This document shows positions 18,415-31,375 of a stretch of 61,077 nucleotides of DNA, in pieces. Position numbers and translations under genes: made by a program. The notes below the pieces were generated by a model. That model was not told where the DNA came from and ran no database searches. It worked only from the letters and a program-made list of their open reading frames with translations. The first letter of the stretch is position 1, and each line of letters starts with the position of its first letter. Origin of the DNA: a virus; the IMG/VR virus record IMGVR_UViG_3300030098_000471, positions 1 through 61,077 of that record; one strand, 5' to 3'.

Positions 18415-19959
18415 TTAAAATGTCCAATAAGTTTTTTTCTTCTCTGTTACTTCGTCATCATAGTGTGGATCATCGGGGTGTGTCAGGTGCCAAGATTCTT
18501 TCATATAATGTATTGCCATTGTCATGGCATCCACTTGGTCATCATGGGCCGCATTGGGAAACCTTAGTAATTCTTCTATTAATTCATCTGACCATTTCTT
18601 ATTATTGGGTATCCACATTCTACCAGCTTCTATAATGGGTGAAGCCGCATATACTCTGGATACCTTATCTCTATCTGGATTATATTCCAGTACAGGTAGT
18701 CCACCCCTTCTCATATCCTGTATCAGAGACTGTCCACTTGCCTTCTTCTCCACCATACACACGTCTGGCCTGTGTTCATCATAAAGTTTCTGTGCAAGCT
18801 TTCTCAGTTCTGGATATTCAAACCTGCCACGTATGTTTCCCAATAATATCAGGTTAGGTGTAAAATCTTCATATCCCTTTTCATCTTGATTATACATGGA
18901 GAAGATACCCCATGTCTGTATGACACTATAATCAGCCGTAGTCTTTGTAGAGAATGCCGTATCATAGGTCTGTATTATGAAGTCACAGGTAGGTGGCTCT
19001 TCGTAGTCCCAATGTTTAAGCCATCTCTTTTTTATAATACCTCCTTCTTCTGGTGTGGGGTCTTGCATGTAGAGAGCATTCCAATATCGACTACCATTAC
19101 TGGCTTTAATCTCGCTCTCGTCCATTTTTAAAATATCATCACTCTTCCATTCGGGAAAGTAACTAGATCCTACAGGTAAGTCAAGCAATTGCGCTGCTTC
19201 TTCGTCCACCCATGCAGGTATTCTAATTACTTCCCAAGGGATCGTTTCAAACTCTCCCATATTCTCCTGTTGTTTTAGTAGCCAGCCACATAGATCATCA
19301 TAATGATACCGTGTATTAATTATAACTATAGAACCATTGGGCATAATACGGGTTCTAAGCCCTGCTGGATACCATTCTTTAATATATTTTCTACCTGATG
19401 CACTGATTGCGTCCTCTTCAGACATTACATCGTCCAATATAGCTATATGTGCGCCTCGTCCAGCTATTTGAGAGCGTACACCAGCAGCATAGTAGGTTCC
19501 ATTTTGATTTGTCTTCCACTTACCAGCAGCTCTTACGTCGCTCCTGAGAGAGACTCCTTTAAAAATTTTTTGGAACTCTTCCGTATTGACAATATCCCTT
19601 ACAGATCTACCAAAATCACTGGATAACTGGTCACTATGAGAGACAGTCAGTATTTCATGTGCAGGATTTCTACCAATATACCAAGCAGGAAACAATTTTG
19701 AGCAGATAACAGACTTTGATGATCGTGGAGGAAGAAAGACCATCAGTCGTTTTGTTTTACCAGACTCTAAATCTTTTAATTTATTAGAAATAAGTTCAAT
19801 ATGTTTACCCATGCGCCAATCAGAGACAAGCATAGGAGCCATCATTCTAACAAATGTGAGAAAATCACTATTAGATTCTTGATTTACTTTAATATCTAGT
19901 AAATCTTTTAAGTTAATAAAGGGTTTTAGGTACTCGTTAGTACTTTCTAGTAATTCCAT
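18415..19959 (-). CDS. terL: Terminase large subunit, 514 aa
   Basis: The motor-nuclease that packages DNA. The ATPase domain shows a Walker A-like PPRSSKS (77-83) and Walker B IAILDDV (172-178) followed by a catalytic-type SEED. The nuclease domain has the three acidic motifs: QTYDTAFS (Asp333), VCMVEKKASG, and HDDQVDAM near 475. Length fits the family. The gene is first in the late arm. The -10 box of its promoter ends eight bases before the ATG, and there is no ribosome site, so its mRNA may be leaderless. Confidence 0.95.
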   Translation of the reverse strand: MELLESTNEYLKPFINLKDLLDIKVNQESNSDFLTFVRMMAPMLVSDWRMGKHIELISNKLKDLESGKTKRLMVFLPPRSSKSVICSKLFPAWYIGRNPAHEILTVSHSDQLSSDFGRSVRDIVNTEEFQKIFKGVSLRSDVRAAGKWKTNQNGTYYAAGVRSQIAGRGAHIAILDDVMSEEDAISASGRKYIKEWYPAGLRTRIMPNGSIVIINTRYHYDDLCGWLLKQQENMGEFETIPWEVIRIPAWVDEEAAQLLDLPVGSSYFPEWKSDDILKMDESEIKASNGSRYWNALYMQDPTPEEGGIIKKRWLKHWDYEEPPTCDFIIQTYDTAFSTKTTADYSVIQTWGIFSMYNQDEKGYEDFTPNLILLGNIRGRFEYPELRKLAQKLYDEHRPDVCMVEKKASGQSLIQDMRRGGLPVLEYNPDRDKVSRVYAASPIIEAGRMWIPNNKKWSDELIEELLRFPNAAHDDQVDAMTMAIHYMKESWHLTHPDDPHYDDEVTEKKKTYWTF

Positions 19960-19966
19960 AGGTACT

Positions 19967-19995
19967 ATTATACACTATTTTGTTCTCCAATGCAA
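19967..19995 (-). promoter_or_regulatory. Late promoter of terL, near-leaderless
   Basis: TTGCAT (19995-19990, - strand), a 17-bp spacer and TATAAT (19972-19967). Expected start of transcription is at about 19960, one base before the terL ATG at 19959. The same -35, -10 and spacing occur at 12458 and 18385. Confidence 0.75.
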
Positions 19996-20224
19996 CTATT
20001 AAATTAAAATAATTATAAAAAATATAAATTAAAGTAACTTTAAAGTAACTTTATAGCCGCCCCAAAGGTTTTGAAGAGAAGTCCGTAATTTTTTAAAAAT
20101 ATTTGTCAGTGCTGTTTTATATATATACAGTGGCGGCGAATTTTTCCCCGTGGTATCGCACGAGCCTTTATAATTGCCGAATTTTTAAAAATAAAAGATA
20201 CCTTATAAATATATATTCCAAACT

Positions 20225-20241
20225 TTCTAGAAATTCTAGAA
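20225..20241. repeat. Double palindrome TTCTAGAA-A-TTCTAGAA, copy 1
   Basis: Two TTCTAGAA octamers separated by one A. This is the only copy in the divergent region, just left of the 20244-20288 inverted repeat. See the other copies at 21286, 21522, 22986, 23720, 24626 and 28332. Confidence 0.8.
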
Positions 20242-20243
20242 TA

Positions 20244-20288
20244 ATTACAGAGATAGCCAGTGTATATCGTCCCTTGTGTCTCTGTAAT
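20244..20288. repeat. 10-bp perfect inverted repeat
   Basis: ATTACAGAGA (20244-20253) pairs with TCTCTGTAAT (20279-20288) across a 25-base loop. It directly follows the double palindrome at 20225-20241. It may be an operator or a cruciform near an origin. Confidence 0.6.
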
Positions 20289-20402
20289 GCCGCACCATGC
20301 ACCCCAAACCCTAGCAAATCCACCATTATTTTATTTTGTACATTCCCAGAAACTAGCCATTTTATATCAAATATCGACGATATATAGACCAAATTAACCT
20401 TG

Positions 20403-20423
20403 TAAGTCATTGAAAACATTGAA
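20403..20423 (+). repeat. Iteron-like direct repeat, copy 1
   Basis: A 21-bp sequence, TAAGTCATTGAAAACATTGAA, is repeated exactly at 20469-20489, 66 bases apart. Each copy contains two CATTGAA heptamers, giving four heptamers in about 90 bases. Such spaced repeats are typical of initiator or regulator binding sites. Confidence 0.6.
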
Positions 20424-20468
20424 CAAAACCCATAATTAACGATCATCATTTACTAAATTATCAAAAAC

Positions 20469-20489
20469 TAAGTCATTGAAAACATTGAA
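20469..20489 (+). repeat. Iteron-like direct repeat, copy 2
   Basis: Identical to 20403-20423 over 21 bases and similar for a few bases beyond (YAAA). It lies about 100 bases upstream of the first early gene. Confidence 0.6.
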
Positions 20490-20538
20490 TAAATTACACC
20501 GATTTGACTATATTTTTCAATTCGGTTACTTTTTAAAC

Positions 20539-20555
20539 ATCATCCACTTGATGAT
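20539..20555 (+). promoter_or_regulatory. Hairpin in the leader of the first early gene
   Basis: ATCATC and GATGAT pair around the loop CACTT, about 30 bases upstream of the ATG at 20588. It could be an operator or mRNA leader stem. Confidence 0.4.
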
Positions 20556-20587
20556 ACATTTTAAACTTAAAAAAAGGAATTAAGATA

Positions 20588-21241
20588 ATGACCACAACAC
20601 AAGATCTAGTTACATTCATTAATGCTGGATTAAAAAGAGACTTAAACAATCAAGAAAAAACATTCTTGAAAACTTTGGGATATAAAAAAGAGAAAGGAAA
20701 ACTAGTCTGGACAACAGAAAGACTAGATGCTACTGAAGAAAACCCCGAAGGAATTGCAAAAGTTACTGGCGATTTAATCATATCAATCAGTGATAAATGT
20801 AGCATGAAGAACTGGAGTGATAAAAAAGTAGCGGCCTATGATAAAGAAAATGGCACATGTTACAGCAAGCTATTAAATTTTATTACAGATAAAACGGAAA
20901 GAAACACCACTAGATCACTTTATAGGTGGTTTGCTGAAAATTATAACGAGGCAATGGTTGTGCTTTTTGAACGTCACGACGCTAACAAAAAGACAACATC
21001 ACTTGAAAGTCTCAAAAAGCACACAATTTCAGCTATCAAGAAACTAGAGAAAGAAACTTCAGAGACTTCAGAGACTGCAGAAACTGAAGAGACTGCAGAG
21101 ATAGTCAAGCCAGCCTCAGAGGAAGAAGATGCAAAGGCTATAATATTGATACTAAAGGATGCTAAAAAGGCTGGCAGAGATACAAAAGCTATTTTGCAAA
21201 TGATGGGAGACATGTTGAAAGCTGAGAAACTAAACAAATAA
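20588..21241 (+). CDS. First early protein, unknown, 217 aa
   Basis: The function is not recognised. It is the first gene of the early arm, preceded by AAAAAAAGGAATTAAGATA. The N-terminal 150 residues look like a compact folded domain (LVTFINAGLKRDLNNQEKTF, later TTRSLYRWFAENYNEAMVV). A Thr/Glu/Ser repeat (SETSETAETEETAE) follows, then a C-terminal helix with DAKKAGRDTKAILQMMGDML. A linker of this kind between two domains suggests a regulator or host-takeover protein. A strong hairpin lies just after the stop. Confidence 0.75.
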   Translation: MTTTQDLVTFINAGLKRDLNNQEKTFLKTLGYKKEKGKLVWTTERLDATEENPEGIAKVTGDLIISISDKCSMKNWSDKKVAAYDKENGTCYSKLLNFITDKTERNTTRSLYRWFAENYNEAMVVLFERHDANKKTTSLESLKKHTISAIKKLEKETSETSETAETEETAEIVKPASEEEDAKAIILILKDAKKAGRDTKAILQMMGDMLKAEKLNK

Positions 21242-21250
21242 CAGAATTTA

Positions 21251-21281
21251 GGGAGTGTTTGCAGACTTCGCAGACACTCCC
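21251..21281 (+). terminator. Strong hairpin after the first early gene
   Basis: GGGAGTGTTTGC pairs with GCAGACACTCCC (12 base pairs with one G-T) around a seven-base loop, nine bases after the stop codon. It is followed by AAATTT rather than a long T-run, so it may act as a partial terminator or 3'-end stabiliser. Confidence 0.6.
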
Positions 21282-21285
21282 AAAT

Positions 21286-21302
21286 TTCTAGAATTTCTAG
21301 AA
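21286..21302. repeat. Double palindrome, copy 2 (inverted centre)
   Basis: TTCTAGAA-T-TTCTAGAA, the reverse complement of the other copies. It begins five bases after the hairpin of 21251-21281 and precedes the 43-aa gene. Confidence 0.8.
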
Positions 21303-21367
21303 ACTTGCAACATTAATTTAAATATGTTATAAGTTTGTATAAATTCAAAAATTAGAAAGGATTAAAA

Positions 21368-21499
21368 ATGTCAAATACAATTAATGAAATGATTCTTGAA
21401 AATTTTTTCGAGGAATTCCTAGCTAAAGGATTTTCGGAAGAGGATGCTGAGAGGCTCTCTCACGAGAAGATCGAAAATACCCCTACACCTTGGGGTTAA
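21368..21499 (+). CDS. Small acidic early protein, 43 aa
   Basis: A 43-residue frame with start MSNTINEMILENFFEEF and end KIENTPTPWG, preceded by AGAAAGGATTAAAA. It is acidic and helical (FFEEFLAKGFSEEDAERLS). It follows the double palindrome at 21286 and precedes another at 21522, so it is probably a single-gene unit. Small acidic early proteins often inhibit host enzymes; nothing more can be said. Confidence 0.6.
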   Translation: MSNTINEMILENFFEEFLAKGFSEEDAERLSHEKIENTPTPWG

Positions 21500-21521
21500 G
21501 ATAAAAGGATTAATTATAAAC

Positions 21522-21538
21522 TTCTAGAAATTCTAGAA
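21522..21538. repeat. Double palindrome, copy 3
   Basis: TTCTAGAAATTCTAGAA, followed by ACTTGAAAGGA and the ATG at 21556. The same arrangement (palindrome, ACTTGAAAGGA, A-run, ATG) recurs at 23720. Confidence 0.85.
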
Positions 21539-21555
21539 ACTTGAAAGGAAAGAAA

Positions 21556-21783
21556 ATGTCAAATTTAAAACCAATCGCAAGCAATATGAAGGAGTTAATT
21601 GTTAATGGTGTATCAATTCTATTTAGTTATGAAACACCAGTTGCCGGATGGAATAACGAGGGAGCATTTAGAACTGAGAAAAAGTATTCAGCAACAACAA
21701 CTAAACATATTAACAAATACTTAGGTGGAAAAGATATAGGCCGCACAGTATCGCAACAATATATCAATAGCCTAGTATCATAA
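21556..21783 (+). CDS. Conserved phage protein (DUF8033-like), 75 aa
   Basis: Start taken at the ATG at 21556 behind GAAAGGAAAGAAA; a TTG five codons upstream lies in the ribosome site. The sequence NGVSILFSYETPVAGW followed by TEKKYSATTTKHINKYLGG resembles a widespread small phage family (VSYxTPVA ... TTKHINKWL) that I recall as DUF8033, of unknown function. Confidence 0.75.
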   Translation: MSNLKPIASNMKELIVNGVSILFSYETPVAGWNNEGAFRTEKKYSATTTKHINKYLGGKDIGRTVSQQYINSLVS

Positions 21784-21798
21784 TTAGTTTATATATAG

Positions 21799-21824
21799 GG
21801 TAGTATGTGTCAGCATGTACTACC
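21799..21824 (+). promoter_or_regulatory. Seven-bp leader hairpin
   Basis: GGTAGTA pairs perfectly with TACTACC around a 12-base loop, between the 75-aa and 89-aa genes. There is no T-run. It may be a leader structure controlling the gene at 21856. Confidence 0.4.
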
Positions 21825-21855
21825 TCAATATGTAAACCAAATAGGACTAAACACA

Positions 21856-22125
21856 ATGGCAAAATCAAAACCGTACTACGGGAATTTTACCCCTAATAAA
21901 TTGTTAAAAGCTAGGCAAAATTATGATGATATTCATACCGCACCAGATAACACGATAAAAAATTTAGACGGTAATCACATTATAGATAGTCATCAAATTG
22001 CTCTAATGCGGCATGACCATTTTACCAAAATGTACAACAAACATAAAAGGGAACAATGGTTTAAAAATAAAGATCATAATAAATGGATAGATAGTACTTG
22101 CAATGAATTAAAAAAACTGTTATAA
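21856..22125 (+). CDS. Hypothetical early protein, 89 aa
   Basis: Start chosen at the ATG at 21856 (MAKSKPYYGNFTPNKLLKAR), after AGGACTAAACACA; a longer frame would begin in the hairpin leader. It is basic and histidine-rich (HIIDSHQIALMRHDHFTKMY, then KHKREQWFKNKDHNK). No family is recognised; a nucleic-acid-binding protein is possible. Confidence 0.65.
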   Translation: MAKSKPYYGNFTPNKLLKARQNYDDIHTAPDNTIKNLDGNHIIDSHQIALMRHDHFTKMYNKHKREQWFKNKDHNKWIDSTCNELKKLL

Positions 22126-22136
22126 ACTTATAGAAA

Positions 22137-22255
22137 TTAAATAATAAATAGGGTTTTCTAGGTATGGTGGGGCGTACTCCTCACAAAACTCATAGGCTGA
22201 TCACCTTATCGGATGAAATAGTATTCATATTTAGAAAATCCTATCTATTATTTAA
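22137..22255 (+). ncRNA. Cloverleaf-like structured element, 119 nt
   Basis: The outer arms 22137-22160 and 22232-22255 are complementary over 24 positions with only one mismatch and one G-U. The 71 bases between them can form three consecutive stem-loops, each with a six-base loop: 22167-22172/22179-22184, 22097+100 to 22201 with 22208-22212 (that is, 22197-22201/22208-22212), and 22213-22217/22224-22228. The result is a four-way junction. There is no T-arm consensus or CCA context, so it is not an ordinary tRNA. It lies in a 161-base gene-free gap. It may be an RNA product, an mRNA control element or a DNA cruciform. Confidence 0.4.
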
Positions 22256-22286
22256 GTCTAACAAGTAAATTCTAGGAGATTGCGAA

Positions 22287-22448
22287 ATGCAAAACAAAAT
22301 TAAAACAATGAAATTTAATCAACAAGAATATAAAGAAATGTACCGAGAGTTTTATCTAGAGGGTAACGTCCAGCCCACAACTAAAGGATTTGGGGAATTT
22401 TTAGATTGGCGTAAAAATGTTGAAGCATTATTTAACAATAAGGATTAA
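22287..22448 (+). CDS. Small early protein, 53 aa
   Basis: A 53-residue frame preceded by TAGGAGATTGCGAA. It starts MQNKIKTMKFNQQEYKEMYR and continues EFYLEGNVQPTTKGFGEF, ending NKD. It is helical and mixed in charge. It lies just downstream of the structured element at 22137-22255, which may control it. No family is recognised. Confidence 0.6.
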   Translation: MQNKIKTMKFNQQEYKEMYREFYLEGNVQPTTKGFGEFLDWRKNVEALFNNKD

Positions 22449-22466
22449 CACTGAAAGGAAAAAACA

Positions 22467-22763
22467 ATGGCAATAAAAAAACACACAAGAGAAACTAAAC
22501 AAAAGATATTTGATTTAGTGGATAGTGGTCTAAGTAGACGTGAGGTAGGTGAAATAATGGGCATGACAAAAAATGCTATCATAGGAATAATGCGTGACGC
22601 TGGTAAATGTAAGAAAGCAAACTATGCCTATGTATCTTACAAAGTAGATACGATTAATAATAATTATGATAAATCAGTAGCGTTTAATGAACATAAAGAA
22701 ATAATCTCACAATATGAGATATCTAAAAAAAGATTATTAGCGGTGAATCCATTTGGATATTAA
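22467..22763 (+). CDS. GcrA-like helix-turn-helix regulator, 98 aa
   Basis: GcrA is a cell-cycle transcription factor of alphaproteobacteria that works with sigma70 and methylated DNA. Residues of about 10-48 (KQKIFDLVDSGLSRREVGEIMG, then MTKNAIIGIMRDAG) follow the GcrA N-terminal pattern, in which a SxxxIAxxLG-xTRNAVIG helix-turn-helix recognises DNA. The C-terminal half has no further motif. A role in redirecting host or early phage promoters is inferred, and the family supports an alphaproteobacterial host. A generic HTH protein is the alternative. Confidence 0.65.
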   Translation: MAIKKHTRETKQKIFDLVDSGLSRREVGEIMGMTKNAIIGIMRDAGKCKKANYAYVSYKVDTINNNYDKSVAFNEHKEIISQYEISKKRLLAVNPFGY

Positions 22764-22791
22764 AAAATAATTGTCTTAAAAGGAAAATAAA

Positions 22792-22980
22792 ATGATTATG
22801 AAAATATTAAATGGATTTTGTTTTGCAGGTTTAATGCTTGCATCTATTCTAACAATGGCATGCGGCATAACATGGGACACTGGTCAAGTATGGTATGGGC
22901 AAGCTATTGCTACATGTTTTATACTAATGTCATTAGTGCTTGCATATGTGGCAATATTAGTGCTAGTATGGAGACATTGA
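22792..22980 (+). CDS. Two-pass membrane protein, 62 aa
   Basis: Two hydrophobic helices (GFCFAGLMLASILTMAC and CFILMSLVLAYVAILVLVW) are joined by a short polar loop WDTGQVWYGQA. It starts after AAAAGGAAAATAAA. Small early membrane proteins may exclude superinfecting phages or alter the host membrane; this one is not a recognised family. Confidence 0.7.
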   Translation: MIMKILNGFCFAGLMLASILTMACGITWDTGQVWYGQAIATCFILMSLVLAYVAILVLVWRH

Positions 22981-22985
22981 TAAAC

Positions 22986-23002
22986 TTCTAGAAATTCTAG
23001 AA
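22986..23002. repeat. Double palindrome, copy 4
   Basis: TTCTAGAAATTCTAGAA, five bases after the preceding stop codon, followed by CTTTGAAAGGG and the ATG of the GP88-like gene at 23021. Confidence 0.85.
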
Positions 23003-23020
23003 CTTTGAAAGGGTAAAAAA

Positions 23021-23659
23021 ATGTTAGTAAAAGAAGCTAAACAGTTTGGCAACATATCCAAGGGCAACACCAAAATGCCGGGAACTACGTTTGCCATTGA
23101 TGCATTTGCCTGTAACGTAGGCAGTAAACTTGCAAAGATTGAGGGTACGCCATGCTTCAGTTGCTATGCTCGCAAGTTACAAAAGTTAAGACCTAGTGTA
23201 GATCAAGGATGGAAAGCTAACCTTGCTAAATGGCAACAAGCTAACAAATCTAAATGGGTGCAAGCTATGACATTTCAAATTAACCGCTACAATGTAGACG
23301 GATACCATAGATGGTTTGATAGTGGCGACTTACAATCATTGGAAATGCTACGCAATATCATAGACGTGGCACTACTAACACCACATATAAAACATTGGCT
23401 ACCTACACAAGAACGTGGCATAGTGGAAGCATACCGCAAACAATATGGGCAAGAGCCTGATAACCTAGTCATAAGAGTATCCGCCTCAAAAGTAGATGCA
23501 AAGACTATGCCTAGATTTGCAAATACATCTATGGTATTTACCAAACATGGCAAGGCATTGGGGAAAGAGTGCAAGGCCAGAACGAGAGGCAATCAATGTG
23601 GAGATTGTCGGGCATGCTGGTCAAAAGATGTAGAAGTTATAGCTTACCCGAAGCATTAA
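23021..23659 (+). CDS. GP88-family phage protein, 212 aa
   Basis: The family (phage gene product 88) is widespread but its role is unknown to me. Visible features: FACNVGSKLAKIEGTPCFSCYARK (two thirds conserved cysteines) near the N-terminus, HRWFDSGDLQSLEMLRNIIDVA in the middle, HWLPTQERGIVEAYR, and a C-terminal cysteine cluster (CKARTRGNQCGDCRACW). The cysteine spacing suggests a metal or Fe-S site. It follows a double palindrome, and a promoter-like sequence lies just downstream. Confidence 0.75.
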   Translation: MLVKEAKQFGNISKGNTKMPGTTFAIDAFACNVGSKLAKIEGTPCFSCYARKLQKLRPSVDQGWKANLAKWQQANKSKWVQAMTFQINRYNVDGYHRWFDSGDLQSLEMLRNIIDVALLTPHIKHWLPTQERGIVEAYRKQYGQEPDNLVIRVSASKVDAKTMPRFANTSMVFTKHGKALGKECKARTRGNQCGDCRACWSKDVEVIAYPKH

Positions 23660-23668
23660 AAAAAAAAC

Positions 23669-23697
23669 TAGACAATGTAGTATGAGTAGTGTATAGT
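23669..23697 (+). promoter_or_regulatory. Sigma70-like promoter
   Basis: TAGACA (23669-23674), a 17-bp spacer and TATAGT (23692-23697), in the gap after the GP88-like gene. Transcription would start near 23705, just upstream of the double palindrome at 23720, placing that palindrome in the mRNA leader or downstream operator position. Confidence 0.5.
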
Positions 23698-23719
23698 AGT
23701 ATCAGTACACTAAACAAAC

Positions 23720-23736
23720 TTCTAGAAATTCTAGAA
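23720..23736. repeat. Double palindrome, copy 5
   Basis: TTCTAGAAATTCTAGAA followed by ACTTGAAAGGA and the ATG at 23754. Flanks match copy 3 for about ten bases on each side. Confidence 0.85.
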
Positions 23737-23753
23737 ACTTGAAAGGAAAAAAA

Positions 23754-23966
23754 ATGATACAGGATAATGTTGAGATTGATGTACTACAAGCACAGCTAGA
23801 TAGTATACCTGTAGACATTGAGTTGATAGCAGTTAAAAACTCAAGACAAATACAAGTAATATTGGAAGGTCAAGTGTATAAAACTTTTCCATCTGTCTCA
23901 GCATTTAAACAAACATTGAGAAACACTTTTGATATTGTAGAAAAAAGTAGAAAGGATAGAAGATAA
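23754..23966 (+). CDS. Small early protein, 70 aa
   Basis: Start at the ATG at 23754 after GAAAGGAAAAAA. A mixed-charge protein (QDNVEIDVLQAQLDSIPVDI, then VYKTFPSVSAFKQTL). It ends in a TAATG overlap with the next gene. No family is recognised. Confidence 0.65.
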   Translation: MIQDNVEIDVLQAQLDSIPVDIELIAVKNSRQIQVILEGQVYKTFPSVSAFKQTLRNTFDIVEKSRKDRR

Positions 23967-24121
23967 TGAGTAACCAACACAACGACGCTATTAAAGAGAT
24001 GTTGTTTGAAGCGGCAATGACTTCATTAGTCTCCAATGGTGCGCCAGATAATGAAGACACAGAACTAAAAGCTGTTAAAATTGTAGCCCAACAATGGGAA
24101 AACTACAGAGAAGGGGAATAA
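23966..24121 (+). CDS. Small early protein, 51 aa
   Basis: A 51-residue frame whose ATG overlaps the previous stop (TAATG). It reads MSNQHNDAIKEMLFEAAMTS ... VAQQWENYREGE, an acidic helical protein. The next gene begins two bases after its stop, so these genes are translated in series. No family is recognised. Confidence 0.6.
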   Translation: MSNQHNDAIKEMLFEAAMTSLVSNGAPDNEDTELKAVKIVAQQWENYREGE

Positions 24122-24122
24122 A

Positions 24123-24398
24123 ATGAGAAAGAAAAATCCATTTGGTAAAAGTACCACCCAAGATAAACCCTACGCCATATATGAAGATGGGCATGGGTGG
24201 CAATGGCGTGTATTAAAAACATATCAACACCCTGACAATGAAAAGGGTAATGAGTATGCACGATGGCTTGTGTCAGCAACGTCACCACTAATGCACGATG
24301 GTGGTTATGAAATGGGCGACCAATATTCTAATTTAGTATTGGAGTCTGGTTATCTAACATCAGCTACCGATGAGTGGAAACAATTTTATGGAGATTAA
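24123..24398 (+). CDS. Hypothetical early protein, 91 aa
   Basis: A compact protein rich in Trp, Tyr and Gly: YAIYEDGHGWQWRVLKTYQH, then NEYARWLVSATSPLMHDGG, then DEWKQFYGD. It has the look of a small beta-sheet domain. It is preceded by GAAGGGGAATAAA and followed within two bases by the next gene. Function unknown. Confidence 0.65.
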   Translation: MRKKNPFGKSTTQDKPYAIYEDGHGWQWRVLKTYQHPDNEKGNEYARWLVSATSPLMHDGGYEMGDQYSNLVLESGYLTSATDEWKQFYGD

Positions 24399-24399
24399 A

Positions 24400-24618
24400 A
24401 TGGATATGCACCCACAAGTATATATGTTTAGAGCAGTAGCAACTAGAGCCGCATTAAAATTGTGGAATAAACATGGCATTAGACCCAATAGACGGACAAC
24501 TAAGCGCACTCTATTAGATATAGCTACAATTTATACAGGTAATAAGTATAAAAATAGTAAAAAAAGTAGTGAACAAGCATATAATGACTTGACATTATGG
24601 ATTAAAAGTAATAGTTAA
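24400..24618 (+). CDS. Hypothetical early protein, 72 aa
   Basis: Start taken at the ATG at 24400 (MDMHPQVYMFRAVATRAALK), directly after the previous stop. Basic and helical, with KHGIRPNRRTTKRTLLDIAT and a Lys/Ser-rich YKNSKKSSEQAYND. A double palindrome follows eight bases after its stop. No family is recognised. Confidence 0.65.
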   Translation: MDMHPQVYMFRAVATRAALKLWNKHGIRPNRRTTKRTLLDIATIYTGNKYKNSKKSSEQAYNDLTLWIKSNS

Positions 24619-24625
24619 ATAAAAC

Positions 24626-24642
24626 TTCTAGAAATTCTAGAA
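24626..24642. repeat. Double palindrome, copy 6
   Basis: TTCTAGAAATTCTAGAA, 33 bases upstream of the ATG at 24675. Left flank AAAC is shared with copies 3, 4 and 5. Confidence 0.85.
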
Positions 24643-24674
24643 CTTTAAAGTATTTAAAACAAGAGAGATGACCA

Positions 24675-24995
24675 ATGAGACAGATAACATTAACTGAATT
24701 TATTGCCAACGTAAAAATGACCTGCGGCTCTTCATTTTATGGTCGAGATGATGGAACAACACCTCACTCATTTTACTTGAAAGCCGCTAGAAGTATGTTA
24801 AGACGAAGATTAGAAAAAGATTTGGAAAAATTTGACTACCCTCGTGATTATTATTTTTCTAAAGAGGATTCAGAAAAACTAGCAGAAGTTTACGCAGACA
24901 CAGCCAAACTTATTCATGAGAAGATGAATAAATTTAACAATGAATATAATAAAATACAAAGATTAGCGGCGATGGTAAATAAACAAGAGAGATGA
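24675..24995 (+). CDS. Hypothetical early protein, 106 aa
   Basis: The gene starts within the recurring leader AGAGATGACCAATG. It is a helical, charged protein: TLTEFIANVKMTCGSSFYGR, then SMLRRRLEKDLEKFDYPRDY, then DTAKLIHEKMNKFNNEYNK. No family is recognised. It is followed three bases later by the DnaJ-type zinc protein, whose leader is the same. Confidence 0.65.
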   Translation: MRQITLTEFIANVKMTCGSSFYGRDDGTTPHSFYLKAARSMLRRRLEKDLEKFDYPRDYYFSKEDSEKLAEVYADTAKLIHEKMNKFNNEYNKIQRLAAMVNKQER

Positions 24996-24998
24996 CCA

Positions 24999-25253
24999 AT
25001 GACTGATAATAAATGGTGGCACATAGTAACATGGTGTAAGTGGTGCAACGGTGAAGGCTATACCACTGACAATAACCCAAGCAAAAAAGCAGAAGTGTGT
25101 GATGACTGTGATGGTATAGGTGAGCATACTTATGTCGAAGAAGAATGGCGTTATGAAGATGAGCAGGAAGTACGAGATAACTATGAAGATATAAAATCAA
25201 TTGAATTGTTGGAGGGTACATCATGGGGAAGTCCAACACTAAGCATGGAGTAA
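24999..25253 (+). CDS. DnaJ-type zinc-finger protein, 84 aa
   Basis: Two CxxCxGxG-like elements (CKWCNGEGY and CDDCDGIGE) resemble the central cysteine-rich domain of DnaJ, which binds zinc and unfolded proteins. A very acidic tail (EEEWRYEDEQEVRDNYED) follows. There is no J domain, so it is not a full co-chaperone; small phage proteins of this kind are common and of unknown role. The leader AGAGATGACCAATG precedes it. Confidence 0.7.
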   Translation: MTDNKWWHIVTWCKWCNGEGYTTDNNPSKKAEVCDDCDGIGEHTYVEEEWRYEDEQEVRDNYEDIKSIELLEGTSWGSPTLSME

Positions 25254-25360
25254 AGAAAGTAAATACCTATGCTAAATCATTACAAAATAATAAGTATAGA
25301 CAACGTGTAGTACCTAGTGCTAAAAAGTATAAACGAAATAGGAGAGTTGAAGATGAGTGA
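25223..25360 (+). CDS. Short basic protein, 45 aa
   Basis: A 45-residue frame (MGKSNTKHGVKKVNTYAKSL, then KYRQRVVPSAKKYKRNRR) starts inside the end of the zinc protein behind TTGGAGGGTACATC and overlaps the next gene at its stop. The pattern RQRV followed by basic residues slightly recalls ribosome-rescue ArfA tails, but the similarity is weak. Probably an RNA- or DNA-binding peptide. Confidence 0.5.
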   Translation: MGKSNTKHGVKKVNTYAKSLQNNKYRQRVVPSAKKYKRNRRVEDE

Positions 25361-25532
25361 TAGAACAGTAGCGATTGAAGGTTGGGATCAACTTGAGTGG
25401 TTAATGAGTGATAGATGGGATATGACATTACAAGAAGCCTTGCAATGTATGGTTGATAATAATCAAGATATGAAGTTTCTTAATGATGTTAAAGGGTTAC
25501 ACGTATTAAAAATAGCCAATGGAGAAGGATAA
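25353..25532 (+). CDS. Hypothetical acidic protein, 59 aa
   Basis: Start at the ATG at 25353 (MSDRTVAIEGWDQLEWLMSD), behind AGGAGAGTTGAAG and overlapping the preceding stop. Acidic and tryptophan-containing, with LQEALQCMVDNNQDMKF. It ends at a TAATG overlap with the next gene. No family is recognised. Confidence 0.65.
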   Translation: MSDRTVAIEGWDQLEWLMSDRWDMTLQEALQCMVDNNQDMKFLNDVKGLHVLKIANGEG

Positions 25533-25717
25533 TGTTATTAGAACGTACATCAATGCTTAGTGATAAGACTACGACAATGGAGTTACCCATAACCAATGAA
25601 CAGCTTGATCGTTGGAGACAGGGAGAACTTATTCAAAATGTATTTCCTGACTTGACACCGGATGAACGTGAGTTTATAATGACAGGTATTACAGCAGAAG
25701 AATGGAGAACCCTATGA
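25532..25717 (+). CDS. Conserved small phage protein, 61 aa
   Basis: The C-terminal two thirds, LPITNEQLDRWRQGELIQNV and PDLTPDEREFIMTGITAEEW, match a family I recall from many tailed phages (LPITxEQL ... FPxLxxxEREFIxTGITxxEW) with no proven role. The first ten residues may not be translated, as a second ATG lies at 25556. A perfect consensus promoter overlaps codons for LTPDEREFIM. Confidence 0.75.
   Translation: MLLERTSMLSDKTTTMELPITNEQLDRWRQGELIQNVFPDLTPDEREFIMTGITAEEWRTL
25652..25680 (+). promoter_or_regulatory. Consensus promoter inside the 61-aa gene
   Basis: TTGACA (25652-25657), 17-bp spacer, TATAAT (25675-25680): both boxes fit the sigma70 consensus fully. It lies in coding sequence, 34 bases before the ATG of the next gene at 25714. 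Its coding context is a conserved protein motif, so chance cannot be excluded. Confidence 0.55.
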
Positions 25718-26205
25718 ATATATTTTATTTGCATCGTGATCCTGTCGTTGCAGCGCAGATGCAATGTGACAAGCACGTAGTCAAGATGATATTGGAAAGC
25801 GCACAGATGCTCTCTACTGCTCACCGTGTATTGGATGGAGATGACTACGCTAATTCACGAGGACTGTATAAACTGGTGCATGAAAACCATCCTAGCACAC
25901 GCTGGGTACGCTCTCATCATAAACACTACAATTGGTTATGGAAACATATGATAGCCTTGATGGAAGAGTACACACACCGCTATGATAAAGTTCACGAGAC
26001 AGAACGATTAAATGATCCACTGTCCATATCACCAGTTAATATTAATTTCAGCGATCACTTCTTAGACCCACCACAATGTATGCCTGATCAGTATAAAAAC
26101 AAAGATACTGTGCAAGCCTATCGTGATTATTATATTGGAGAAAAATCTAACTTTGCTAAATGGAATAAGTGTGGTAATATACCTGAGTGGTACAAGATGG
26201 GATGA
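25714..26205 (+). CDS. Conserved phage protein with CDKHVVKM motif, 163 aa
   Basis: The ATG at 25714 overlaps the preceding stop (ATGA). The sequence AAQMQCDKHVVKMILESAQM, then LSTAHRVLDG, ENHPSTRWVR, and EEYTHRYDKVH, then YRDYYIGEK is a signature of a widespread phage/bacterial family, in some annotations called pyrimidine-dimer glycosylase-like; I see no clear match to T4 DenV, so I leave it unnamed. The many conserved His residues hint at a metal or catalytic site. Confidence 0.75.
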   Translation: MNIFYLHRDPVVAAQMQCDKHVVKMILESAQMLSTAHRVLDGDDYANSRGLYKLVHENHPSTRWVRSHHKHYNWLWKHMIALMEEYTHRYDKVHETERLNDPLSISPVNINFSDHFLDPPQCMPDQYKNKDTVQAYRDYYIGEKSNFAKWNKCGNIPEWYKMG

Positions 26206-26246
26206 CCATATTAAGGATGTAGCATTTGATATAGAGGAGATGACCA

Positions 26247-26441
26247 ATGACTAAAAAATATTATCCCCATGTATGGGATTTAACATTTTGTCTTATGGAT
26301 ATCGACGGAAATCCAAAAAAAGACAAAGAGGGAAATATAATTTTGTATGAGGATTACAAGATGGATTGCAGTTCAATTTGTGATTTTGTTGATGAAAATA
26401 ATTTAACACAGATAAAAGAGAAAGAGAAGGACAATAACTAA
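26247..26441 (+). CDS. Hypothetical early protein, 64 aa
   Basis: The gene begins in the recurring leader GAGATGACCAATG. The protein is acidic with aromatic residues: YYPHVWDLTFCLMDIDGNPK, then LYEDYKMDCSSICDFVDENN. Three cysteines are present. No family is recognised. Downstream follows a 161-base gap with a tandem repeat. Confidence 0.6.
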   Translation: MTKKYYPHVWDLTFCLMDIDGNPKKDKEGNIILYEDYKMDCSSICDFVDENNLTQIKEKEKDNN

Positions 26442-26474
26442 TACAAAAAAGAAAAGAAATATCTATGCTAAGCC

Positions 26475-26572
26475 TTGACAGCGGCTCCCGACTACTCCTT
26501 TAAATAGGGTGACGTGAGTGGCTCCCGACTACTCCTTTAAATAGGGTGGCGTGAAGAAATCGGGTAGCTGTC
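26475..26572 (+). repeat. Tandem 37-bp repeat enclosed by a long-range stem
   Basis: Two 35-base units (26483-26517 and 26520-26554), period 37, differ at one base; each starts GGCTCCCGACTACTCC and holds TTTAAATAGGGTG. Outside them GACAGC (26477-26482) pairs with GCTGTC (26567-26572), and CCCGA of unit 1 pairs with TCGGG (26560-26564). A TTGACA lies at 26475. It lies in the leader of the gene at 26603. It could be a regulatory RNA, tandem operators or weak promoters. Confidence 0.55.
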
Positions 26573-26602
26573 GTTTATTTTTGTAAATTAGGAGAGTGAC
26601 CA

Positions 26603-26965
26603 ATGAATATACACCCAAGCCTAGAGAAGTTACCTAAAGATCACAGGCTACATCCAGATAAGGTGAAGCAGTGGATCAAGGTTAATACCGATATGCTTGC
26701 ATCTATTCGTAAGGATGTGAGAAACAATGTTAAGGGTGCTATTGCTAGACAAGCAGACATTGAAGGTTACATTAAGAACATGCGTAAATATCTAAGAGAT
26801 GGTGATTGGATTGATATGTTCTATGGTGTAAATCAAGAAGGTAAAATAATGTTGAAGTGTGTAGCTATGGCATATAACAGTGACGGCACAGCCAAGCGTG
26901 ACGTTGGAACATGGTATCCAGACATGGGTATCTATACAAAGGAGATGGACGATGAGACTACCTGA
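26603..26965 (+). CDS. Hypothetical protein, 120 aa
   Basis: The leader is GAGAGTGACCAATG, a variant of the recurring one. The protein is lysine-rich and helical in its first half (KLPKDHRLHPDKVKQWIKVN, then DVRNNVKGAIARQADIEGYI) and aromatic in the second (DGDWIDMFYGVNQEGKIM). No family is recognised. It follows the tandem repeat region, which may control it, and overlaps the next gene by 14 bases. Confidence 0.65.
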   Translation: MNIHPSLEKLPKDHRLHPDKVKQWIKVNTDMLASIRKDVRNNVKGAIARQADIEGYIKNMRKYLRDGDWIDMFYGVNQEGKIMLKCVAMAYNSDGTAKRDVGTWYPDMGIYTKEMDDETT

Positions 26966-27143
26966 TGGATGGATGTCTCCCTATGAGTGGGAGCTATGGA
27001 TGGAAAATACTTATGATGAAATGCCATCATGGTATAGTGATGTTAATCTGAGAGAGGATGCCTATAGGGAATACCTCAAGGACAACGCACAATATACTTC
27101 AAAAGAGGTAACTAAAGAAAGGTTGAGAAAGTTTCTTAAATAA
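26952..27143 (+). CDS. Hypothetical protein, 63 aa
   Basis: Start chosen at the ATG at 26952 (MRLPDGWMSPYEWELWMENT) behind AAAGGAGATGGACG; an earlier in-frame start lies deep in the previous gene. Very rich in Trp and Tyr, with EMPSWYSDVNLREDAYREYL. No family is recognised. Confidence 0.6.
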   Translation: MRLPDGWMSPYEWELWMENTYDEMPSWYSDVNLREDAYREYLKDNAQYTSKEVTKERLRKFLK

Positions 27144-27154
27144 TATAATCATAG

Positions 27155-27183
27155 TTGCATGCTACAAGATAGTATGATATAAT
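27155..27183 (+). promoter_or_regulatory. Sigma70-type promoter
   Basis: TTGCAT (27155-27160), 17-bp spacer, TATAAT (27178-27183), in the gap after 27143. The -35 and -10 boxes are the same as in the three late promoters of the other strand. It would give a leader of about 15 bases for the gene at 27206. Confidence 0.75.
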
Positions 27184-27205
27184 GTTATTATGAAGGATAT
27201 AAATT

Positions 27206-27382
27206 ATGAACAAATATAATTTTAAATATCACGATGAAGTACCTGATAATCTAGCAGATTATGTAGTAGATGTATGTATCTTCTCTGGGCTAGAAATAAA
27301 TAGCTTGACAGATATTAAATTATCTGATATAAATGGTTTTCTAAATGGTCTTGAAGAACAAGCTGATGAGGTAGTTGAATGA
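27206..27382 (+). CDS. Small acidic protein, 58 aa
   Basis: A 58-residue frame preceded by GAAGGATATAAATT. It reads MNKYNFKYHDEVPDNLADYV and continues with a hydrophobic-acidic pattern (LEINSLTDIKLSDINGFLNG). It overlaps the cupin start by ATGA. A second promoter-like sequence lies within it at 27305-27333. No family is recognised. Confidence 0.6.
   Translation: MNKYNFKYHDEVPDNLADYVVDVCIFSGLEINSLTDIKLSDINGFLNGLEEQADEVVE
27305..27333 (+). promoter_or_regulatory. Promoter-like sequence inside the 58-aa gene
   Basis: TTGACA (27305-27310), 17-bp spacer, TATAAA (27328-27333), 46 bases before the cupin ATG at 27379. Confidence 0.5.
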
Positions 27383-27807
27383 GTGTAGTAGAGGGTAAGG
27401 TGTGGGGTACAACAATGCCCCTTATTCAGAGGCCACAGCTAGAGGTACATAGTATCTTTGTTAATGCTGGTGGCTATTGTTCCAAGCATAAACATCAATC
27501 AAAGATAAATGCTTTTTATGTAGAGGAAGGAGAATTAGAAATACATAGATGGAAAGATTATAACTTGGTAGATGTTACAATCTTATATAATGAAGATGTA
27601 GCTATAGTTCCTGCTGGTGAGTATCACATGTTTAATGCTAGAACAGATACTAAAGCACTGGAGATATACTGGTCTGAGTTACATATCAATGACATTGAAA
27701 GAGAAATAGTAGGAGGAGTTGATGAGACTCTTGATCTATTTAATTCTCCAAAGAAAAATAACTTTGCAAAAGTATTTAATATAGATGACTTAGAGGGGAG
27801 AAACTAA
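27379..27807 (+). CDS. Cupin-fold protein, 142 aa
   Basis: Cupins are small beta-barrels that bind a metal with two His and a Glu. Here GGYCSKHKHQSKINAFYVEEGELE (about 35-58) supplies the first motif (H-x-H ... E) and VPAGEYHMFNA (about 80-90) the second. The arrangement is like mannose-6-phosphate isomerase type II / sugar-modifying cupins. A role in nucleotide-sugar or glycan metabolism is possible and would link it to the glycosyltransferase cassette; this is inference. Confidence 0.7.
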   Translation: MSVVEGKVWGTTMPLIQRPQLEVHSIFVNAGGYCSKHKHQSKINAFYVEEGELEIHRWKDYNLVDVTILYNEDVAIVPAGEYHMFNARTDTKALEIYWSELHINDIEREIVGGVDETLDLFNSPKKNNFAKVFNIDDLEGRN

Positions 27808-27992
27808 TGTCTGTTATAATGGAAGTAGCAAAACAAAGTGGCAGTCCTAGATTAATTATGAAGGAAGATTATAATTCTCTAGATTTTTCAGAGAAGTTAC
27901 AATGTCTAGTATCAATACGCACAGCTATTGAAAAAGAAATAGCCTTTACTGAAAAAGACTTCAGAAGATTTGTTAATAAACGTAGGTTCTAA
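27807..27992 (+). CDS. Hypothetical protein, 61 aa
   Basis: The start overlaps the cupin stop (TAATG). A helical protein: SGSPRLIMKEDYNSLDFSEK, then LQCLVSIRTAIEKEIAFTEK, ending in a basic RRFVNKRRF. No family is recognised. Confidence 0.6.
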   Translation: MSVIMEVAKQSGSPRLIMKEDYNSLDFSEKLQCLVSIRTAIEKEIAFTEKDFRRFVNKRRF

Positions 27993-28005
27993 AAGGATTA
28001 ATACA

Positions 28006-28260
28006 ATGGATAAAGATTTTTTTGAGTGGCTGTTCAAAGCACTAAAGATTGATGTCAATGGTAGGTCAATGTACTCAAACATTTATAAAGATGGATTTAA
28101 AAATGTTAATCGTTATACAAGAGCAGGTAAGAACGGTAAGTTTGTTACGTGTCCTCACTGTCATGCTGATACTCTTGTCTATCATTTCTCATGGGTTAAA
28201 ATGAGTTGTAATAATTGTATGGCATCTGTTGATAAAGATGATTGGCTGGTTAAAGTGTGA
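28006..28260 (+). CDS. Zinc-ribbon protein, 84 aa
   Basis: Start chosen at the ATG at 28006 behind AAAAGGATTAATACA. The C-terminal half holds two CxxC pairs (CPHCHAD and CNNCMAS) 17 residues apart, a zinc ribbon of the kind seen in small nucleic-acid-binding phage proteins. The N-terminal half (DFFEWLFKALKIDVNGRSMY) is helical. Function unknown. Confidence 0.65.
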   Translation: MDKDFFEWLFKALKIDVNGRSMYSNIYKDGFKNVNRYTRAGKNGKFVTCPHCHADTLVYHFSWVKMSCNNCMASVDKDDWLVKV

Positions 28261-28337
28261 TGTATAAAATATTATTATTGTTATTATTTTTTAGTACATC
28301 TGCACTGGCACATATTTTACAGGAGATAAAGTTCTAG
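28260..28337 (+). CDS. Signal-peptide-like micro-ORF, 25 aa
   Basis: Start overlaps the previous stop (TGATG). The peptide MYKILLLLLFFSTSALAHIL is a near-perfect signal peptide with an ALA cleavage site, followed by only seven residues (ILQEIKF). Its TAG stop lies inside the double palindrome at 28332. It may be a membrane-active peptide or a remnant of a longer exported protein. Confidence 0.4.
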   Translation: MYKILLLLLFFSTSALAHILQEIKF

Positions 28338-28348
28338 AAATTCTAGAA
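28332..28348. repeat. Double palindrome, copy 7
   Basis: TTCTAGAAATTCTAGAA, 14 bases before the ATG at 28363 and about 3.7 kb from copy 6. Flanks here (AAG left, GTTT right) differ from the other copies. Confidence 0.85.
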
Positions 28349-28362
28349 GTTTAAATATAAAC

Positions 28363-28566
28363 ATGTTTGTAATTGTTCAAGATATAATTAAAGAAGCACA
28401 TAAAGACTTGAAAGAGTTTGATTGCTTTGATATTTTGACAACCCCTACTGGATTTCCAATGAAGTTTAAAACAGAAGGGGAAGCAATCAAATTTCTAAAT
28501 GACTTAGGAATTGATATGCCAACAGAATCAGATCAAGGAGAAATTAGAATTGACAGACTCCATTAA
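28363..28566 (+). CDS. Hypothetical protein, 67 aa
   Basis: A small mixed-charge protein: FVIVQDIIKEAHKDLKEFDC, then FPMKFKTEGEAIKFLNDLGI. The centre FKTEGEAIKFL resembles short domains that read a sequence property such as those in phage single-domain accessory proteins; no firm family. It follows the double palindrome. Confidence 0.6.
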   Translation: MFVIVQDIIKEAHKDLKEFDCFDILTTPTGFPMKFKTEGEAIKFLNDLGIDMPTESDQGEIRIDRLH

Positions 28567-28738
28567 ACAATACAACGCTATGGTAACTCAACTAAATAAA
28601 AATATAAGTTCGCTTCAAATTATAAATAAACGTCAGGCTGAAACCATCAAACAGTTGAGAAGAGAATTATCTATAGCACGTCAAGAAAAAGGTTCTGGTA
28701 ATATGTGGGCTGAGTTAGATGACAGCAGAGATAATTAA
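28550..28738 (+). CDS. Coiled-coil protein, 62 aa
   Basis: A TTG at 28550 follows AAGGAG by nine bases and is the best start; an internal ATG is at 28580. The protein is one long helix (NKNISSLQIINKRQAETIKQ, then LRRELSIARQEKGSG), typical of a small coiled coil. It overlaps both neighbours. Function unknown. Confidence 0.55.
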   Translation: MTDSIKQYNAMVTQLNKNISSLQIINKRQAETIKQLRRELSIARQEKGSGNMWAELDDSRDN

Positions 28739-28904
28739 TTTTTATAAACACTGGAAAGCACGTCAAGAAACATTAAGGAAATCAATGGGTTATCCAGATG
28801 ATCTGTGGTACATGATGCTCGACAATGGGTATGATCCTTTAGATATAGATGAAGTAAAAAAATTCATAGATGATTTTGAAAAGGATATAGTGGGAAATGA
28901 CTAA
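28719..28904 (+). CDS. Hypothetical protein, 61 aa
   Basis: MTAEIINFYKHWKARQETLR is followed by an acidic stretch (DLWYMMLDNGYDPLDIDEVK). Overlaps the genes before and after by 20 and 8 bases, as usual in this compact segment. No family is recognised. Confidence 0.6.
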   Translation: MTAEIINFYKHWKARQETLRKSMGYPDDLWYMMLDNGYDPLDIDEVKKFIDDFEKDIVGND

Positions 28905-29082
28905 AAATTTATGGCAAAAAGACAGAGCAACCCTATTTAAAAATTATGTACGACAGTATAAAGAAGAAGGCTATGACGTAAAAGAAGCAAGGCAGTTAGC
29001 CAAGATTGAAATCAATGAAGTCATGGCAGACAAGGAAGACTTTGTAGATAATCTTTGGAAAGAAACTTTTGAAGATGTATAA
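28897..29082 (+). CDS. Hypothetical protein, 61 aa
   Basis: A helical, charged protein (KDRATLFKNYVRQYKEEGYD, then VKEARQLAKIEINEVMADKE). It overlaps its neighbours by 8 and 14 bases. No family is recognised. Confidence 0.6.
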   Translation: MTKNLWQKDRATLFKNYVRQYKEEGYDVKEARQLAKIEINEVMADKEDFVDNLWKETFEDV

Positions 29083-29263
29083 TTTAGTTTATAAAAATAA
29101 GATATTACAAAGATACAGAACAAAGCGTGAAGCAAAGAAAGAACTTGACGATAGATCAAACTTGTGCTATATGTTAAGAGTAAATCCTTCTGAAGCATAT
29201 TCAATTACGAAAGGAAAGACCCATGCAACCAGAAGAAAAAGGTTGGAAAGGGCCATGCTCTGA
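29069..29263 (+). CDS. Hypothetical basic protein, 64 aa
   Basis: A basic protein (YKNKILQRYRTKREAKKELD, ending THATRRKRLERAML); the first six bases may be skipped in favour of the ATG at 29075. Its 3' end overlaps the primase-helicase start by 41 bases in another frame, which is more than usual here, so its true end is sure but its importance is not. Confidence 0.55.
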   Translation: MKMYNLVYKNKILQRYRTKREAKKELDDRSNLCYMLRVNPSEAYSITKGKTHATRRKRLERAML

Positions 29264-30863: not shown

Positions 30864-31375
30864 TGGCTTGGTTAGATAAAGATAAGGAAAGAAAATGGAA
30901 AAGGGAATATAAGAAAAGCCGATATGAAAATGATCCTGAGTTTAAAGAAAAAGAAAAAGCTAGGAGAAGAAAATATACTGCTACACATCCTGAACAAGGT
31001 AAAGTTCAAGGTCAAAGATGGAAAGAAAAAGCTACTACCCTAGCTTCAGATGCTTTTTTCACAGCTAAAATTAATAGCTTGAGAGGAAGAGCCAAAGAAA
31101 AAAATTTAGATTTTAATTTAGATAAAGAATTTTTAAAAATTATTTTTCCTAAAGATAATAAGTGTCCTGCATTAAAAATAAAATTTAAAACAGGCAATGA
31201 AGGGGGCAGGTATAATTCTCCTAGCGTTGATCGAATTGATAATTCAAAAGGATATGTAAAAGGTAATATTATTTGGGTATCAAACCTAGCCAACATGATT
31301 ATGTCAAGTGGCACACCTCAACAGGTGTTAGATGTAGGAAAGTTTTTTAAAGAACAGATGGAGAATATAAAATGA
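30863..31375 (+). CDS. HNH / endonuclease VII-like nuclease, 170 aa
   Basis: The N-terminus is a basic helical region. The core holds KCPALKIKFK, then PSVDRIDNSKGYVKGNIIWV and SNLANMIMSSGT, a signature of HNH-like and T4 endonuclease VII-related phage proteins (S-x-DRID ... KGYVxGNxxWVS ... AN). It may resolve branched DNA or act as a selfish homing nuclease. It overlaps the helicase stop by one base and the next gene by four, so it is part of the operon. Confidence 0.75.
   Translation: MAWLDKDKERKWKREYKKSRYENDPEFKEKEKARRRKYTATHPEQGKVQGQRWKEKATTLASDAFFTAKINSLRGRAKEKNLDFNLDKEFLKIIFPKDNKCPALKIKFKTGNEGGRYNSPSVDRIDNSKGYVKGNIIWVSNLANMIMSSGTPQQVLDVGKFFKEQMENIK

Follow-up and report, generated by a model that had tools for sequence, protein, structure and literature searches.

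What recognises a short palindromic sequence that is repeated along the early genes of a marine virus, and to what effect? The question is raised by the IMG/VR virus record IMGVR_UViG_3300030098_000471 (61,077 bp, classed linear), which was analysed whole and is referred to here as the window. Its early region carries seven copies of a 17-bp element, TTCTAGAA-W-TTCTAGAA. From sequence comparisons we put at about 0.72 the probability that these elements serve as DNA operators to which the first early protein of the phage itself, of 217 amino acids (aa), binds; that protein would most likely repress or tune early transcription.

The virus is marine and related to the HTVC023P-type pelagiphages. 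The nearest TerL proteins among isolates are those of phage 023Pt_psg01 and the Pelagibacter phages HTVC023P and HTVC027P (~40% identity); gene order around terL in these phages differs from that of the window, and a repeated-dyad scan of 27-kb stretches from the three listed none. Genes for primase/helicase, DNA polymerase A, ribonucleotide reductase and portal were recognised in the window, and there was no match to tyrosine integrase (PF00589), with other recombinase families only partly searched and the record possibly incomplete. Related viral contigs were collected through primase and terminase similarity. They are metagenomic and share ancestry, so that counts across them are not independent trials.

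The seven elements in the window

We define class I as the TTCTAGAA-W-TTCTAGAA element and class II as the TTGTGAAA-N2/3-TTTCACAA dyad of viruses whose first early protein belongs to a second family, B. The class I copies of the window, the gene proposed to encode their regulator (family A) and two associated features are as follows.

20225-20241, plus strand: putative operator copy 1, TTCTAGAAATTCTAGAA, an exact match between the divergently oriented terL and first early gene, ~350 bp upstream of the latter
20588-21241, plus strand: first early gene, 217-aa family A protein, the proposed regulator, which co-occurs with the element
21251-21281, plus strand: strong hairpin immediately 3' of the first early gene, resembling a terminator but lacking a clear T-run (fold z = -6.6 for 21245-21300)
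21286-21302, plus strand: putative operator copy 2 (centre T), ending 65 bp before a 43-aa open reading frame (ORF) and two bases before a promoter-like TTGCAA-17-TATAAG
21522-21538, plus strand: putative operator copy 3, with the ATG of a 75-aa gene 17 bp downstream
22986-23002, plus strand: putative operator copy 4, with a GP88-like gene (PF17338 match, E=3.5e-21) starting 18 bp downstream at 23021
23669-23697, plus strand: sigma70-like promoter sequence TAGACA-17-TATAGT, upstream of copy 5, found by the promoter scan and conserved in contig L106
23720-23736, plus strand: putative operator copy 5, preceded by that sequence, with the ATG of a 70-aa gene 17 bp downstream
24626-24642, plus strand: putative operator copy 6, with the ATG of a 106-aa gene 32 bp downstream
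28332-28348, plus strand: putative operator copy 7, with the ATG of a 67-aa gene 14 bp downstream

The initial annotation had listed seven copies, and every one proved exact. A scan of the whole record returned the same seven matches and the reversed-pattern control none, far above the expectation from dinucleotide shuffles, in which a mean of 0.71 and a maximum of 3 matches were found with up to three mismatches allowed. All 14 occurrences of the TTCTAGAA word in the 61-kb window lie inside the seven pairs, with no solitary one, which indicates that the pair is the unit. The rarity of CTAG that had been remarked on amounts to mild under-representation in the window (170 observed, 202 expected). 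A degenerate copy had also been suspected near 22126; it has four mismatches and forms part of the 5' side of another, strong hairpin of 130 nt, and is therefore probably not a copy of the element.

The copies are placed at gene boundaries. The six early-operon copies fall in gaps between ORFs of the chosen set, where a random 17-mer fits at only ~8% of positions, and a possible 25-aa ORF (28261-28339) has its stop within copy 7. From the end of the element to the start codon, copies 3 to 7 are separated by 14-32 bp. Copies 3 and 5 have, as had been observed, common flanks of AAAC on the left and ACTTGAAAGGA on the right. The element is present at corresponding places in a near-identical contig (L059/L105/L164) and in a close relative (L027/L106/L165), except that copy 5 is missing in L106, where the TAGACA-17-TATAGT sequence is kept. 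In a three-way alignment of the window, L165 and L166, copy 1 is invariant and its flanks vary. Copy 7 also precedes the orthologous gene in L107-L109, L093 and L014; L126 lacks the element before its orthologue of gene 28363, despite upstream sequence that matches L108.

The promoter scan of the window gave 46 matches against 41 +/- 6 in shuffles, no excess, so that statements about promoters are made here only from conservation or from reading by eye. The hexamers next to copy 2 were read by eye and were not listed by the scan. No Rfam family exceeded its gathering score in 19900-29300, and nothing relevant was found on TTCTAGAA in the phage literature.

Other features were noted in this part of the window. 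Directly after copy 1 there is a hairpin at 20245-20288 (z = -3.9) with a compensatory change in L165 (ACAGAGA/TCTCTGT to ATAGAGA/TCTCTAT). The leader of the first early gene holds two copies of AAGTCATTGAAAACATTGAA (20406-20497), and a similar CTCATTGAAAACATTGAT follows the first gene of L175. The noncoding ~130 nt at 22128-22258 form a long, strong hairpin (z = -6.2; -8.9 in L106) that is near-identical in L106 and has no Rfam match. Two near-adjacent copies of a direct repeat, GGCTCCCGACTACTCCTTTAAATAGGGTG(A/G)CGTGA, occupy noncoding DNA at 26483-26553. An Endonuclease VII-like/HNH gene (30863-31375) directly 3' of the primase is not at that place in L106, and its L153 homologue is elsewhere.

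The element goes with the first early protein

The motif count proposed in the initial annotation, seven in the record, was extended to the phage group, where the element goes with family A. Within the group the family A relatives are found in the near-identical contig, L106/L165, L166, L002 (31% identity) and, as partial sequences, L116 and L184, and all of these bear the element. In thirty terL contigs whose upstream region covers 1.3 kb or more there are neither families A or B nor class I or II elements; in some of them terL is 92-95% identical to that of the window (94-95% in L169, L170 and L171). Contigs L093, L107-L110 and L014 bear the element and end before the first gene, and so neither support nor contradict the link. 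A pattern scan of viral contigs also matched many unrelated contigs, mostly at one site each, and many of these matches may be chance.

Two regulators had been suggested, the 217-aa first early protein and a GcrA-like protein of 98 aa encoded nearby. The first tracks the element; the second does not, being present also in the element-free relatives L124, L130, L210 and L189. We rejected the GcrA-like protein as the binder: at 13.9 bits it falls far short of the Pfam GcrA cut-off of 26.9, and GANTC, the known site of GcrA, is absent from the 17-mer. A host factor would not account for the different dyads of close relatives described below. That either a host regulator or the GcrA-like protein binds the sites is the least credible of the explanations considered here.

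The family A protein of the window is 54% identical to that of L106, while neighbouring early proteins are mostly 82-100% identical. W76, S77, N106, T107, R109 and S110 are invariant across five family A homologues, and an N-T-x-R-S segment is common to those aligned. The structure model (pLDDT, the predicted local distance difference test, of 68) has helices at 92-99 and 105-117, and it suggests that this segment may be a recognition helix. Searches of the phage collection by tblastn with families A and B gave no match, and no family A relatives were found in bacterial genomes.

Other proteins go with other sites

When the related loci collected up to that point were searched systematically for repeated dyads, only three types came up, TTCTAGA, TTGTGAAA and GTTTACA; several relatives had no repeated dyad of such kind. 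The second type belongs to L153, L151 and L218, each of which has five class II dyads arranged as in the window and a first protein, family B, unrelated to A. The length of the class II operator is 18 bp at all five sites in L153 and 19 bp at all five in both L151 and L218. In step with this, the B protein of L153 is 69-71% identical to those of L151 and L218, which are 98% identical to each other. Between L153 and L151 the B protein is an outlier, as other matched early proteins are 83-100% identical, mostly above 95%. The third type occurs in L233 (terL 95% identical), where a third unrelated first protein, family C, is flanked by three copies of AGTTTACARTGTAAACT (GTTTACA dyads).

Protein similarity alone, with the distant family A protein of L241 as the query, led to L249 (79%), another distant virus of family A. 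Its flanks carry five TTAGYTAAAAYRTTTTARCTAA dyads (TTAGYTAAAA-TG-TTTTARCTAA; 0 expected), one upstream of the gene, one after it past a terminator-like sequence and the others near gene starts or boundaries. These dyads are what the pairing of protein and site would predict, and the prediction held. In L241, TTCTAAAATGTTTTAGAA lies 114 bp upstream of the family A gene. A core, CTARAA-N1/2-TTYTAG, is common to class I, L241 and L249 if one half-site variant in L249 is allowed. The first protein and its sites thus seem to change together, relatives with another first protein having another dyad or none, and the comparisons make this predicted pairing well supported.

We also considered whether the elements might be recombination or mobile-cassette junctions. 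L093 and L110 have the same site and the same upstream flank followed by different sequence, and an extra gene in L106 stands directly after copy 6. Against this, sites are precisely present or absent beside unchanged orthologous genes, they change in concert with the first protein, and there is no integrase-family match. A role as junctions is very improbable.

Some resemblances were set aside. The TGTGA-N6-TCACA of L153 resembles an E. coli CRP site, and was rejected as such a site since relatives have N7; the heat-shock-element look of TTCnnGAA arrays was rejected for wrong spacing and the wrong domain of life. A profile comparison of families A and B gave an hhalign probability of 0.2%, and we claim nothing from a similar-looking YG-EL-L/F-G-I/F stretch in both. 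The structure model of family B (pLDDT 54) was too poor for use.

Further repeats were seen in the relatives. About five TTGCA-AATGAGAATCATT-CGCAA-type dyads with a Fur-box-core look are clustered in the terL/first-gene intergenic region (L171:3763-3985, L125:1168-1370). More distant relatives carry repeated larger elements in early noncoding DNA (L219:3709, 6827, 7080, 7398; also L220), with conserved AGAGATACCA ... TGGTTCTCT flanks and a variable inner stem. Tandem iteron-like GAATACTTGGT repeats upstream of the first early gene in L241 (4557-4640, period 11) and L249 (3060-3130, degenerate) are a possible replication origin.

DNA operator or RNA hairpin

The initial annotation had left two models standing, a double DNA operator of an early regulator and an mRNA leader element; our comparisons favour the first and weaken the second. 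As RNA, the elements would be leader hairpins (UUCUAGA-AWU-UCUAGAA) by ribosome-binding sites, bound by a phage protein or ribonuclease for control of translation or processing. Such RNA can fold (-5.8 to -9.4 kcal/mol), the majority of copies lie just upstream of starts, the outer A/T flanks lengthen the pairing in many copies, and covarying leader hairpins do occur at early genes of some relatives.

Among 21 distinct class I copies the half-sites are near-invariant, the centre is A or T and flanking runs of A and T are conserved. The centre base flips between A and T at orthologous sites with both half-sites unchanged. Not one of 19 aligned copies has a two-sided change in the 7-bp stem; where copies vary, the pairing is broken and not compensated. 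Positions +/-1 are complementary in only 4 of the 21, and the "loop" bases on either side of the centre vary no more than the stem does. The GAGT(A)TCTTACGA-loop hairpin of other relatives offers a contrast: it has 16 two-sided cells and scores 0.475 for covariation, where shuffles score 0.156. Since class I lacks the covariation of a true covarying leader hairpin, recognition as DNA is favoured. The fold z is modest (-0.7 to -2.3 in four of the six copies folded), three of the five L249 copies have a C.A mismatch on the sense strand and one is reversed in orientation, and the concerted 18/19-bp change suits dimer spacing on DNA better.

The GAGT(A)TCTTACGA hairpins are of interest in themselves. 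They are repeated in L180 (e.g. 1337-2558, minus strand), L124, L130, L111, L120, L134, L179, L186 and L190, mostly 40-70 bp upstream of early gene starts, with stems that covary between copies. Those of L180 and L124 have no Rfam match, and the hairpins are a clear candidate for a new RNA element family.

Several observations weigh against operators bound by the first early protein. The sites adjoin ribosome-binding sites, as a translational RNA element would, and the centre is A in the direction of transcription in 17 of 21 copies, which is also expected of an RNA element; because of these two facts the RNA hairpin keeps some probability, though a low one. L106 retains the same putative operators though its family A protein is only 54% identical to that of the window. 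No DNA-binding fold is recognised in family A by any domain database (no significant Pfam or PHROG match), and comparison of its model, of limited quality, with PDB and BFVD gave no match with E below 0.001. No homology among families A, B and C was detected in the comparisons made, for which profile depth was small. Finally, the independent lineages of family A are few (about five) among contigs that share ancestry.

A proposed model for control of the early genes

If the elements are operators, the first early protein, made first, would bind them as a symmetric oligomer. Two operators bracket the regulator gene, the second directly behind it. The remaining operators would act at gene boundaries of the early operon, directly upstream of ribosome-binding sites and in at least one case just downstream of a promoter-like sequence, where the bound protein may block promoters and road-block elongating RNA polymerase in the manner of a stoperator, so that early transcription is shut down or tuned. 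The layout is common to class I, class II and L249, with one site on either side of the regulator gene and more at or near downstream gene boundaries, and this suggests autoregulation together with control of the operon at several points. The comparisons establish the sites and their conserved sequence, their occurrence together with family A and the substitution of other pairs for both protein and sites in relatives; direct binding, the oligomeric state and repression rather than activation are predicted.

The same protein could instead activate delayed-early promoters. Copy 2, two bases upstream of the promoter-like TTGCAA-17-TATAAG, is in an activator-like position, one L153 copy likewise precedes TTGACA-17-TAGTAT, and the strong hairpin after the first gene means that this gene may be expressed alone. 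However, copies 3, 4, 5 and 7 end 14-18 bp before start codons, which leaves no room for an activated promoter and leader downstream, and copy 5 lies downstream of a conserved promoter-like sequence. The spacing favours repression or a road-block at sites other than copy 2, and we consider activation unlikely, less so than a leader hairpin.

Comparison with known systems

The closest known parallel is the stoperator system of the Cluster A mycobacteriophages. In these temperate phages (L5, Bxb1, TipsytheTRex) many copies of one short site are spread along lytic genes, mostly off promoters, the site sequence is particular to each lineage and matches its diverged repressor, and the stoperators are asymmetric and bound by a monomer (PMC6550527, PMC9283540). 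The likeness lies in the multiple copies of one site in early genes (seven over 8 kb here, five each in L153, L151, L218 and L249) and in a site sequence that differs by lineage in step with the first protein (class I, class II, L233, L249). There are differences as well. Cluster A sites are asymmetric and in one orientation, whereas the half-sites here are palindromic, the centre flips and one L249 copy is reversed. Unlike the two-domain helix-turn-helix/stoperator repressor, family A has no significant Pfam or PHROG match and, within the limits of model quality, no PDB fold match. The window virus has no detected integrase, its regulator would be encoded by the first of its early genes, and none of the protein families is related to one already described.

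Two other systems bear comparison. The CI and Cro proteins of lambdoid phages bind dyad operators of ~17 bp that are changed with the repressor in heteroimmune phages, and the operators are few and clustered at two promoters. The elements described here are likewise ~17-bp dyads that change together with the putative regulator, but five to seven of them are spread over ~5-8 kb at gene boundaries. In lytic phages, delayed-early autoregulators are early proteins that damp early transcription. Family A differs from that class in that no DNA-binding fold is recognised in it and the searched phage genomes contain no relative.

Implications

As a tentative and rather doubtful extension, these phages may possess a new kind of control cassette, in which a fast-evolving first early protein of no known fold and its scattered dyad operators are exchanged as a unit between close lytic marine phages. 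If true, orthogonal "regulatory types" would exist in the absence of lysogeny, and might serve a phage to exclude a co-infecting relative or lead to its own exclusion by one. Sequence alone is enough to match protein with operator here, down to a concerted change of operator length at all five sites, which provides at least four testable protein-site pairs and new candidate DNA-binding proteins, and opens the question of immunity-like specificities in apparently lytic phages.

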